From NCBI RefSeq assembly GCF_013401515.1, contig NZ_CP058529.1, positions 1,922,001 to 1,986,000 of the forward strand: DNA of 64,000 nucleotides. The letters are read 5' to 3'. The translations under genes were made by a program, and so were the position numbers. This document shows, one piece after another, positions 22,609-50,384 of the stretch. Position 1 is the first letter of the stretch. Every line of letters begins with the position of its first letter. Origin of the DNA: Halorarum halophilum (GTDB lineage Archaea > Halobacteriota > Halobacteria > Halobacteriales > Haloferacaceae). Below the pieces are notes generated by a model. The model did not search any database. It was not told the DNA's origin and was given only the letters and a program-made list of their open reading frames with translations.

Positions 22609-22924
22609 CGGAGCGGTCGAGGTAGGGCCGGCTTTCGCCCGGCGACCGGCGGGTACGGCTACCGTTCGCGGACAGTTCGATGGCTCACCTGACACCGCGG
22701 CAGCGCCGCCGCTCGGCGGGATCGCACCTCCGAATCGCGCTGGAAAAACGGAACGGAGCCGTGGCTTACCCGGCGACGCAGTCCGCTTTGTGACGGCGGT
22801 GGTCGGGGTACGATCCGTCCGTTGACCTGAACACTCGTGAACCGTCGCCGCCGTTTATGCTCCTCTCGCCACCTCACACTACCGCCTGGGTCGCCCCGCA
22901 CGCGGCGGCCAGGCGAGGCGAAGT
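22609..22924. other. Intergenic region before the Q-rich gene
   Basis: These 316 bases hold no reading frame I believe. GTTTATG at about 22852-22858, some 70 bases before the Q-rich ATG, is the best promoter candidate and implies a leader of about 40 bases. A GGCCGG...CCGGCG stem follows the dys gene and may end its transcript. Confidence 0.45.
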
Positions 22925-23758
22925 ATGACCCAACAGTCACGACAACCCGGCCAGTCCGTCGAGGGAGCACAGCTACAACAGCCACAGCAGGGACGGCAGT
23001 CGGCAGGCCAGCAGTTCCAGCAGAGCCCGCAATCCCAGCAACAGCCCATCCAGCAGCCACAGCAACAGCCGATGCAACAGCAGCCGATGCAACAGCAGCC
23101 ACAGCAGTTCCAGTCGCCCCAACAGGTCCAGCAACCGCCCCTCGGTCAGCAGGGGCAGGTGCCACAGCAGGGTGGACAGATTCAGCAGCCACAGCAGCAA
23201 CCGCAGGGAGCCCAGCAGCCCCAGCAAATCGGACAACCCGGACAGCCCCAGCAAGCCCAGCAGCCGCAACAGCAGCGACAGGGACCACAGCAGCCCCCTC
23301 AGCAACTCCAGGGAGGACAGTTCGGTCAGCAGGCCCAGCAACCCCAGCAGCCGACGCAACAGCAGGCCCCACAGCAACCCCCTCACCAGTTCGGCCACCA
23401 GATCCCACAGCAGGGGATGGGACAGCAGCCCCCTCGAGCGTCCCAGCAGGGGATCGGTCAGCAGGTGCCCCAGTACGGGATGGGACAGCAAGGACAGCAG
23501 TCCGGCGGGGAGATGGCGTCCCAGCAGCTCGGCCGACAGCCCGGCCAGGGCGTGACGATTCCGGTCCAGCCCGCGAGCCAGCAGGGGCAGTCGTCCCAGC
23601 AGGCCCAGCCGCTCCAGAAGGAACAGCAGGCCCAGCAGCCGCTCGGCCAACGGGCCCAGCAGTCGAGTCTCGACCCAGTCGAGCAGTCGGCGGGCGCACT
23701 CGGCGAAGGGCAGACCCAGCAGCCCCCGATGCACACCCCAAAGCAGGGATACCAGTGA
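22925..23758 (+). CDS. Glutamine/proline-rich low-complexity protein
   Basis: 277 residues, of which 119 (43%) are glutamine; most of the rest are Pro, Gly, Ser, Ala and Met. Repeats are of the form Q-Q-P-Q-Q, G-Q-Q and G-M-G-Q-Q. Only about six acidic residues are present, the reverse of normal haloarchaeal composition. There is no signal peptide or membrane helix. It resembles prion-like disordered proteins, so self-assembly is inferred. It stands 10 bases before a small heat-shock protein gene whose N-terminal arm shares the Q/P-rich style, so the two very likely act together. No family recognised. Confidence 0.85.
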   Translation: MTQQSRQPGQSVEGAQLQQPQQGRQSAGQQFQQSPQSQQQPIQQPQQQPMQQQPMQQQPQQFQSPQQVQQPPLGQQGQVPQQGGQIQQPQQQPQGAQQPQQIGQPGQPQQAQQPQQQRQGPQQPPQQLQGGQFGQQAQQPQQPTQQQAPQQPPHQFGHQIPQQGMGQQPPRASQQGIGQQVPQYGMGQQGQQSGGEMASQQLGRQPGQGVTIPVQPASQQGQSSQQAQPLQKEQQAQQPLGQRAQQSSLDPVEQSAGALGEGQTQQPPMHTPKQGYQ

Positions 23759-23768
23759 CGACGGGCGA

Positions 23769-24482
23769 ATGAGCCAGCACGTCCAGTACGGGTACTACGA
23801 CCCGTACTCGCCCGGCGGGAGGACGGTCCAGGGGTCTCCACAGCTCGCACAGCAGCCGGGGATGGGTGGCGTACCGGTGGATCCGGGAGCCCGGGGCCAG
23901 GGCGACCAGGTCCAGCGGGCCCAGCACCAGCACCCGGCTCAGCAGGCCCAGCAGGTCCAGCCGCCGTACCAGTCGCAGGGACCCACGTCGCCCGGACCAC
24001 CAGAGCCCACGCCTCGGCCACCGGGACCGTCCCGGATGGACACGGCCGAGACGAGCGGCCCCGCGGCGTCCGGTGGGGTCGGACCACAGGGCGGCCCGAC
24101 CGCACCCCCGTCCGCGATGGGCGGACCGCAGCCCGCCCCGGTGGGCGGAGGGGGATCACCCGCGCCCGTCGCACAGCCGCTCGTCGACATCCTGGAGACG
24201 CCCGACGAGGTGGTCATCCTCGCGGACGTCCCGGGGTTCGAGGAGGAGGAGATCACCATCCAGGCCGACGAGAGCTCGCTCTCCCTCGTCGCCCATCGGT
24301 CCAACGACGCGGACGAGGAGTATCGCGTCGTCCATTCCGAGCGCCCGACGCGGCTCGAGCGCGTCGTCCAGCTGCCGCCGAACGGCGACATCGACGGCGC
24401 GAGCGCCACCCACGACAACGGCGTCTGTACCGTCACCATCCCGAAGGACGGCACGGACCGGCGTGAGATCGGCTTCCACTGA
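23769..24482 (+). CDS. Small heat-shock protein (Hsp20) with a long Q/P/G-rich arm
   Basis: 237 residues. The first 140 are Gln/Pro/Gly-rich and disordered (for example Q-A-Q-Q-V-Q-P-P-Y-Q). A compact alpha-crystallin domain follows at about 143-235: L-V-D-I-L-E-T-P-D-E-V-V-I-L-A-D-V-P-G-F, L-S-L-V-A-H-R, and the terminal A-T-H-D-N-G-V-C-T-V-T-I-P motif. It would hold unfolding proteins in an ATP-independent way. Typical archaeal Hsp20s have an arm of 30-50 residues, so the arm here is exceptional. Probably co-transcribed with the Q-rich gene. Confidence 0.93.
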   Translation: MSQHVQYGYYDPYSPGGRTVQGSPQLAQQPGMGGVPVDPGARGQGDQVQRAQHQHPAQQAQQVQPPYQSQGPTSPGPPEPTPRPPGPSRMDTAETSGPAASGGVGPQGGPTAPPSAMGGPQPAPVGGGGSPAPVAQPLVDILETPDEVVILADVPGFEEEEITIQADESSLSLVAHRSNDADEEYRVVHSERPTRLERVVQLPPNGDIDGASATHDNGVCTVTIPKDGTDRREIGFH

Positions 24483-24699: not shown

Positions 24700-24918
24700 A
24701 TGAACGAACGAAACTACCGAGTCGTCTCCGAGGTCCGTTCGAACGGTGACCTCCTGGACGTCCCGTCGGACGCACACGACGTCACGATCGAACCGCTGGG
24801 CCAGCCGGGACTGGTCCGGGTCACCTACCTGTCTCCGGTCCGCGAGATCGAGTTCACCGACGGGGGCGAGGACGGGGGGACGGACGCGGACGACGACCGC
24901 CCGACGTACCTCGCCTGA
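24700..24918 (+). CDS. Small acidic protein of unknown function
   Basis: 72 residues. A beta-rich core (Y-R-V-V-S-E-V-R, V-T-I-E-P, V-R-V-T-Y-L) is followed by an acidic Gly/Asp tail. It is 217 bases after the Hsp20 gene on the same strand and may belong to the same group. Composition and codon use match real haloarchaeal genes. Function unknown. Confidence 0.6.
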   Translation: MNERNYRVVSEVRSNGDLLDVPSDAHDVTIEPLGQPGLVRVTYLSPVREIEFTDGGEDGGTDADDDRPTYLA

Positions 24919-48996: not shown

Positions 48997-49124
48997 CGCG
49001 ATCCGGGGCGTCCTTCGTCCCCGAACATCGACCGACCCGAATCCGCCCCGACACGGGCCGTTCGCTTCTCGCGGGTGAGAACCGGCGCGGTGGGTTCTTC
49101 CCGCCGCGACTGACTTCCTCCGGC

Positions 49125-49370
49125 GTGACCACCATCGACCTCTCCGACGGCTTCGACGTCCACGACTACCGGTCGAAGTTGAAACTGCTCCGGCAGGACG
49201 CCGGGTCGATGACGCTCGCCAACCGCGAAGGACTGGAGTGTCCGGCGTGCGACCGCCCGTTCGAGCGGTTGTTCGTCACCGACGACGACCGGGTCAGCTT
49301 CGGGGACGCGCCCGACGGACCGATCTGTCTCGCCCGGACGGACGCGCGGCTGCTTGTGTTGACGCACTGA
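49125..49370 (+). CDS. Small zinc-binding haloarchaeal protein (flagella-cluster-type, DUF7385-like)
   Basis: 81 residues from the GTG at 49125. It has F-D-V-H-D-Y-R-S-K-L-K-L-L, a C-P-A-C pair, F-E-R-L-F-V-T, and a C-terminal C-L-A-R-T-D-A-R-L-L-V-L-T-H. The pattern is like proteins labelled 'flagella cluster protein' in haloarchaeal annotation, though no archaellum genes are near. The third and fourth zinc ligands are probably Cys and the terminal His. Confidence 0.75.
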   Translation: MTTIDLSDGFDVHDYRSKLKLLRQDAGSMTLANREGLECPACDRPFERLFVTDDDRVSFGDAPDGPICLARTDARLLVLTH

Positions 49371-49508
49371 GTCAGGACGACGCGCACCGTCCGCGGTGAA
49401 CGCGTGCGAGAGCCGTGTTCCACATTCGCTATCCCGTACATCGATCGTAGTCATTTCCCGCATCTCTAGGGTGACGAATACGAACGACCATCCTACTGCT
49501 TGAGAACA

Positions 49509-49952
49509 TTACCCGTTCAACACGAGACCGATCATAGCAGAGACGAGTCCTAGAGTCACGATTCCAACAATGAACATCCCTCCTGCACTGTTACTGATTG
49601 TGACGAGAGCTGCTACTGGAATCGGTACGGTAATCGCGATCCAGGGCAATGATTTCTCCCTCAGAGCACCACCGGCAGCGAACATCAGTGAAAAATAGGC
49701 ACCAATAGCCAGTTCGATAGTTCGTAACGCAGTAATACCTAAAACAATCTTTGTGAGGAAGAGCGAGATCGGAATCGCAACGACGGATACTGCCGCGAGC
49801 TTCTGTTGATTAGATAGATCGAAATCGCCAAAATTATCTATAATTTTATATAATATCAAAATCGTGATTAATGCGCTCAAGTACAAGGTTGGAGTGGTAA
49901 AGAACCCGCCAAAATCGAGGCCACCTTGTGCGCTGGTAAGAATATATGTCAT
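49509..49952 (-). CDS. AT-rich multi-helix membrane protein, probably foreign
   Basis: 147 residues from the ATG at 49950-49952, which follows GAGGAG by 11 bases; a GTG at 49964 overlaps that site and is less likely. Five hydrophobic helices (about 23-42, 55-76, 82-100, 105-123, 127-146) alternate with short loops. Codon use is unlike its neighbours: A/T-ending codons dominate. No family is recognised; small size, helix count and composition are compatible with a plasmid, virus or integrated-element origin. Confidence 0.75.
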   Translation of the reverse strand: MTYILTSAQGGLDFGGFFTTPTLYLSALITILILYKIIDNFGDFDLSNQQKLAAVSVVAIPISLFLTKIVLGITALRTIELAIGAYFSLMFAAGGALREKSLPWIAITVPIPVAALVTISNSAGGMFIVGIVTLGLVSAMIGLVLNG

Positions 49953-50384
49953 GCTCGTATCCACTCCTCTTGAATTATTGTTTCAGTGAGCGTGATTAGC
50001 GCCTATTCGACGTAATTGCGTCCAGAGGATCTATTTGCGGACGATAAAATCTTTATTATATTCCTTCCAGAGTCGGGCAGAGGACGAGAGGTTGTAAAAC
50101 GGAATCGACGTCTTCGATGGCTTTCACGCATCGTACGTTCCCTCCGTGACGTCACCTGTGCCGGCGATTCTGATACGGTGGCGCTCGAAATTCAGCCACG
50201 AGGGTTCTCCCGGCGGGGAGTCCGGCGTCCACGGGCCTGTCGTTGATCCAGCAGGCGTACTGCGGGTCGAAGGAGTTCGTCAGGATTAGGGTTTGGTAAC
50301 TCGGTCACGGTCGCTGGTCACGTCGATTGAACGAACTCGCAGTCGACGCTGACAGCGAAGCGCGGATAACCTCCCGGCTGTCGG
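49953..50384. other. AT-rich non-coding tail of the foreign-looking patch
   Basis: 430 bases with no convincing gene. The first 120 bases (to about 50075) are AT-rich, including ATAAAATCTTTATTATATTCC. GC content then rises. The stretch 50235-50300 resembles a short remnant of a coding sequence on either strand but has no support. The patch 49440-50080 differs sharply in base composition from the flanks. Confidence 0.6.

Follow-up and report, generated by a model that had tools for sequence, protein, structure and literature searches.

Small heat-shock proteins (sHsps) are usually regarded as promiscuous. Yeast Hsp42 is an sHsp whose prion-like N-terminal arm drives the condensation of misfolded proteins (PMC12875662). 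Archaeal sHsps are classified as Hsp20/Hsp14 (PF00011, NF041799), with the structures of Hsp16.5 and StHsp14.0 as examples, and the DUF326/Csp family (PF03860; BsCsp3) comprises cytosolic copper-storage four-helix bundles (PMC9484137). Here, a gene set encoding a glutamine-rich (Q-rich) protein and a small chaperone was found to be conserved in many haloarchaea and previously undescribed; a literature search, with subscription papers mostly outside its reach, returned no paper on glutamine-rich haloarchaeal proteins, with or without Hsp20. The window, that is the whole 64-kb stretch of DNA analysed, contains one copy of this module with the following features:

22828-22858, plus strand: conserved candidate promoter element, TGAANNCNNNTGAACNNTC-N7-TTTAT (in the window, TGAACACTCGTGAACCGTCGCCGCCGTTTAT)
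22925-23758, plus strand: Q-rich partner gene, 277 aa, of the domainless type, charge-poor and presumably disordered
23769-24482, plus strand: dedicated Hsp20 of the Q-partner clade, 237 aa, PF00011 with E 1.2e-13
23769-24185, plus strand: N-terminal arm of the Hsp20, aa 1-139, Q/P/G-rich, beginning MSQHVQYGYYDPYS
24186-24458, plus strand: alpha-crystallin domain, aa 140-230 (Pfam HSP20), with the clade-typical DGVC/NGVC motif
24462-24479, plus strand: C-terminal tail of the Hsp20, REIGFH, a putative I-x-F/I type (IXI-like) motif read by eye
24700-24918, plus strand: third gene, a small protein of 72 aa, found downstream of the clade Hsp20 in relatives too

The initial annotation gave the Q-rich protein 277 residues, 43% Gln (119 residues) and about six acidic residues, and these figures are exact: Gln accounts for 119 of the 277 residues (43.0%) and 6 residues are acidic, together with 39 Pro (14%), 34 Gly, 8 basic residues, no Asn and no Cys. 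Its description there as prion-like is doubtful in the yeast sense. Judged by composition rather than by a predictor, the protein has the few charges and the high Gln content (43%) of a yeast-type Q/N prion-like domain, but with 0 Asn and 14% Pro it falls outside that class; amyloid is disfavoured because Asn is absent and Pro reaches 14%. No Pfam or NCBIfam family matched the protein, and a DUF326/Csp four-helix domain with a Cys-rich core was not detected in it by Pfam scan and Cys count. Searching the window genome with the protein's own sequence yielded no second such Q-rich protein, although this search is blunted by the composition correction of HMMER, which discards even the orthologue from the genus when the Q-rich protein is the query. 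A pattern search for QQxQQxQQ in 194 genomes was swamped by other Q-containing genes and was unusable for prevalence. Elsewhere in the window, positions 49001-50000 have a GC content of 0.55 against ~0.69 around them, with a 151-aa open reading frame (49509-49964, minus strand) that contains long hydrophobic stretches; no tRNA was found in the 64 kb.

The Hsp20 starts 10 nt past the Q-rich stop codon, as the initial annotation had noted, and its clean alpha-crystallin domain is borne out by the PF00011 match to residues 140-230 (51.5 bits against a cut-off of 20.8). The arm, put at 140 Gln/Pro/Gly-rich residues in that annotation, comprises 139 aa with 15% Gln, 21% Pro and 18% Gly and is near-uncharged, and the alpha-crystallin domain has 23 D/E and 8 K/R, the usual haloarchaeal acidic excess. 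The protein scores under the NCBIfam archaeal equivalog cut-offs, with 66.5 bits against 100 for Hsp14 and 50.2 bits against 140 for Hsp20. Inspected by eye, the tails read I-x-F in the window genus and IGF/IAF or IDI/IRI across orthologues. A single-sequence structure model of the Hsp20 reached a pLDDT of 47.7, too weak for fold comparison.

Both genes recur together well beyond the window. In the window genus, G016 carries the pair with a Q-rich protein of 309 aa (40% Gln) and 72% identity in the Hsp20 domain, and in another genus (G008) the pair lies in a different neighbourhood with a Q-rich protein of 281 aa (47% Gln). When 67 Hsp20 domains from haloarchaea were placed in a tree, based on an alignment of 111 columns, every Q-partnered or Q-armed case fell into one clade of 32 (support 98/95). 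Within it, 24 members have a Q-rich open reading frame directly upstream, 3 are fused to Q-rich sequence, 3 have a long Q-rich arm of 106-152 aa, and 2 (G040 and G172) have neither a Q-rich partner nor a Q-rich arm. Partner or arm is therefore present in 30 of 32 inside the clade against 0 of 35 outside (Fisher p 5e-17, a statistic that ignores relatedness), and the clustering of these labels on the tree exceeds all 500 shuffles. Selection bias is limited, since a profile (A3) built from 10 domains recovered 17 further clade members, 16 of which carry a Q-rich partner or arm. The upstream Q-rich frames were called by composition thresholds, except for two recognised by reading alone (L109 and L115).

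In all pairs the order is Q-rich gene, then Hsp20. The gaps range from +83 to -7 nt, with two larger overlaps that hinge on the choice of start codon, and short gaps or ATGA-type overlaps are frequent, indicating translational coupling. Single open reading frames joining Q-rich sequence to Hsp20 encode 406 aa (L108), 347 aa (L122) and 363 aa (L125). The last (L125:4218-5309, plus strand), on the Salinirubellus sp. SYNS196 plasmid NZ_CP147842.1, is absent from the distributed annotation, in which an opposite-strand hypothetical protein overlaps it. Halobaculum plasmids are also among the pair carriers, the partner being annotated there as a hypothetical protein. A DGVC-type motif is typical of the clade, the exceptions being GVL in G172 and GVV in the three members with a long Q-rich arm, and elsewhere NGVL mostly takes its place. 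It is apparent that the unit proposed from the window is real and widely conserved, with fixed order, short gaps, fusions and one specialised clade, and neither of the observations that were to count against it, a Q-rich frame missing in all relatives or a lack of co-occurrence with the Hsp20 gene, was made. A single scan of genome contigs gave a Chloroflexi Hsp20 as its sole match, and the viral contigs searched contained no relative of the partner domain described below and one weak Hsp20.

The arm had also been said to match the partner. This stands as far as the arms of paired Hsp20s are richer in Gln (6-24%) than those of other Hsp20s (0-9%), but arm and partner Gln are not correlated (Spearman 0.25, p 0.25). 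In G172 the arm is of a charged R/E type and no Q-rich partner accompanies it, and the partner in G300 contains Gln at 12% only. In L109:2007-3020 and L115:2004-3101 (both minus strand) the partner is Q/H/G-rich and, at 1%, nearly free of Pro, unlike the Q/P-rich partners elsewhere; the low-complexity composition of the partner itself therefore drifts. The f2 partners (e.g. L111, L112 and L114) have in common a C-terminal segment, ADTKLLAETLxRRLGLTxQQLAQxxPxLxxALG, that is probably helical and unlike the Csp-like domain of other partners.

Two further parts of the module were overlooked by the initial annotation. The third gene is one: of 391 genomes, 18 yielded a homologue, and every one of the 17 strong cases adjoins a clade Hsp20. 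Besides the window genus and G008, genomes with four further family codes have a homologue following the clade Hsp20; in one case it lies on the opposite strand and adjoins a fused Q-rich-Hsp20 gene. Exceptions are one extra orphan copy (G407) and one weak match (G004) that is probably due to chance; beside Halobaculum-type pairs the gene was not found. Its product has no Pfam, NCBIfam or solid PHROG match, and a single-sequence model shows three strands at low confidence (pLDDT 66.5), too weak for fold comparison. The candidate promoter element, judged by its conservation and position, is the other. It consists of a direct TGAA/TGAAC repeat with a 10-bp period adjoining a TATA-like box and can be aligned 5' of the module across three species from the window genus. 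When up to 2 mismatches are allowed, 9 of the 12 genomes searched contain a single copy each, invariably at the module, and the reversed pattern used as control gave 0 occurrences; the core was matched within 2 mismatches in 0 of 39 control Hsp20 upstream regions. Three genomes that carry the module (G157, G217 and G233) show no match at this stringency and have weaker versions, and the core is absent upstream of Halobaculum-type pairs.

Taken together, these data suggest a stress-condensate or protein-holding system dedicated to the Q-rich protein and its chaperone. In light of the linkage, the fusions and the specialisation of the clade, it is most likely that the Hsp20 and the Q-rich polymer work together physically; the Gln contents of arm and partner do not co-vary, which weakens the case for co-assembly driven by composition. 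By analogy with yeast Hsp42, we propose, at about an even chance, a self-associating Q-rich scaffold that co-assembles with a dedicated sHsp as a two-polypeptide analogue. More tentatively, and somewhat short of an even chance, the module could be a dedicated archaeal condensate system in which a Q-rich scaffold, a co-evolved Hsp20, a private cis-element and a small regulator form reversible deposits in molar salt. The haloarchaeal cytoplasm is high in salt, and acidic surfaces normally keep proteins apart there. A Q-rich, near-uncharged protein would self-associate under such conditions into a condensate or gel, and the co-translated Hsp20 would join this scaffold through its own Q/P/G-rich arm, which contains Tyr in the window genus. 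The alpha-crystallin dimer may then bind unfolding proteins or keep the scaffold reversible, so that clients would be held under stress in a reversible deposit, as with yeast Hsp42. In some lineages the scaffold would carry a Csp-derived four-helix domain as an oligomerisation or targeting head; elsewhere scaffold and Hsp20 form one fused protein, and in yet other lineages, the window included, the scaffold would act bare. The ~70-aa third protein is possibly a modulator or autoregulator and, with the private promoter element, would complete the window version.

The same gene pair could instead serve as a stress protectant that forms no condensate, the Q-rich protein being a soluble hydrophilin-like shield or an osmotic or desiccation protectant co-expressed with an ordinary holdase. 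A low-complexity sequence that is uncharged and hydrophilic and varies in length, an Hsp20 in the same transcription unit and a broad but patchy distribution would all be consistent with such a role. The Q-rich/Hsp20 fusions and the specialised clade of Q-armed Hsp20s, however, favour physical co-assembly over mere co-expression, and we consider a protectant pair fairly unlikely.

Further insight into the partners comes from Halobaculum and many other genera, where the partner combines its Q-rich arm with a predicted helical domain of ~105 aa at the C-terminus. A search of 391 genomes located this domain in 65 of them, spread over 24 genera, the weakest matches including ordinary DUF326 proteins such as the window genome's own. 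Among 30 loci fetched, the proteins contain ~16-35% Gln where the open reading frame was recovered, and an Hsp20 neighbour is present in some only. Although the domain is below Pfam detection, profile comparison with haloarchaeal DUF326 proteins (probability 97.6, E 3e-12, the E value being for a single comparison; a weaker 84.7 with profile A2 alone) suggests that it is related to the DUF326/Csp copper-storage four-helix bundles. PDB profile matches of the domain were all weak, several of them to designed helical proteins, and were taken as chance. The Cys residues are mostly lost in the Hsp20-paired versions, and in G016 a Q-armed protein (L138:3548-4318, minus strand; no Pfam match) has a four-helix domain that still contains Csp/DUF326-like cysteines and is likely an intermediate between copper-storage proteins and the Cys-poor Q-rich family. 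The window Q-rich protein is linked to the Csp-type partners by position, composition and the common Hsp20 clade; since it does not contain the domain, its descent from a Csp-like family is possible. Q-rich arms in haloarchaea are attached to several domain types (Hsp20, Csp-like and CBS), and G040, a third species of the window genus, encodes on contig C2 (L198:4041-5036, minus strand) a 331-aa protein with a Q-rich N-terminal arm of ~190 aa followed by two CBS domains.

Arms of this kind on Csp-like four-helix domains in 24 genera and on the CBS pair in G040 are what would be expected of a shared sticky assembly tag, and the Q-rich protein and Hsp20 might thus coat or organise a cellular body, such as a storage granule, gas vesicle or the nucleoid, anchored there by the Csp-like head or by the Hsp20. 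Such a coat is unlikely in view of the neighbourhoods, which vary among genera and, mostly read by eye, revealed no granule, gas-vesicle or polymer-synthesis gene beside the modules. The relationship to DUF326 also raises a metal-linked store, in which a partner family derived from Cys-rich Csp/DUF326 bundles would buffer or sense metal or redox stress with a contribution from the DGVC Cys of the Hsp20. The profile match, the Cys-bearing protein of G016 and a Hsp20 Cys typical of the clade point this way; with cysteines mostly gone from the Hsp20-paired versions, and a window partner that has neither the Csp-like domain nor a single Cys, such a store appears quite improbable.

The Q-rich gene itself is under constraint. 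Its dN/dS is 0.28 between the window and G016 and 0.27, 0.21 and 0.26 in three other independent pairs; third-position changes are in excess in all four, and the indels are whole codons. Because orthologous frames with these properties exist, the Q-rich frame is a conserved coding gene under purifying selection and no open-frame artefact. An opposite-strand Leu-rich frame (22973-23734, minus strand) was dropped in favour of the plus-strand frame on the basis of codon-level conservation and the paired layout in relatives. Length and repeat content vary strongly even among close relatives; the alignment of G217 with G187, for example, contains 40 indel columns. At the G040 locus, beside the deoxyhypusine synthase gene, the promoter element, Hsp20 and third gene are kept and the Q-rich gene is missing; the Hsp20 arm there is Arg/Pro-rich, having lost its Q-richness and the conserved Tyr-rich start MSQHVQYGYYDPYS that is kept in G016. 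Total loss of Q-rich proteins from G040 was rejected, as a free-standing Q-rich Csp-like protein is encoded elsewhere in its genome; the gene at the locus may therefore have been replaced and not simply lost. A reading of the Q-rich gene as a selfish or neutral expansion of low-complexity sequence, tolerated upstream of the Hsp20 as a functionless leader, would agree with this variability and with G040 but is highly improbable given the dN/dS values in four pairs, its retention across several families, the fusions and the conserved promoter directly in front.

With the scaffold and its dedicated Hsp20 as the preferred reading, an sHsp clade coupled to a single low-complexity polymer, both by fusion and by operon-like linkage, would offer a natural scaffold-chaperone pair of which both partners are known. 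The fused, paired and lost states all exist, G040 being a natural deletion of the Q-rich gene within the window genus. The module makes testable the behaviour of a near-uncharged Q-rich protein at molar KCl, where the solubility rules of acidic surfaces reverse the normal ones, as well as the possible control of archaeal condensates by sHsps and the co-evolution of low-complexity arms and chaperones.

In comparison with known systems, the window Hsp20 resembles the archaeal Hsp20/Hsp14 proteins in its alpha-crystallin domain and possibly in an IXI-like tail, with relatives in Pfam, NCBIfam and the PDB, but differs in scoring below the equivalog cut-offs, in forming a clade of its own, in DGVC in place of NGVL and in the Q-rich partner or arm. 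In Halobaculum and many other genera, the Q-rich partner has a C-terminal domain that, as far as the profiles indicate, is homologous to DUF326/Csp proteins, but most Cys are replaced, long Q-rich arms are added and, in some cases, an Hsp20 gene is adjacent. Like Hsp42, the module has an sHsp with a long low-complexity N-terminal arm, 139 aa in the window and longer in L108, L122 and L125, where a long Q-rich arm and the alpha-crystallin domain are fused. Unlike in Hsp42, the low-complexity polymer is usually encoded by a gene of its own, which is adjacent and presumably co-transcribed, the haloarchaeal arm is Q/P/G-rich with no Asn, and the module adds a third gene and what appears to be a dedicated promoter element.
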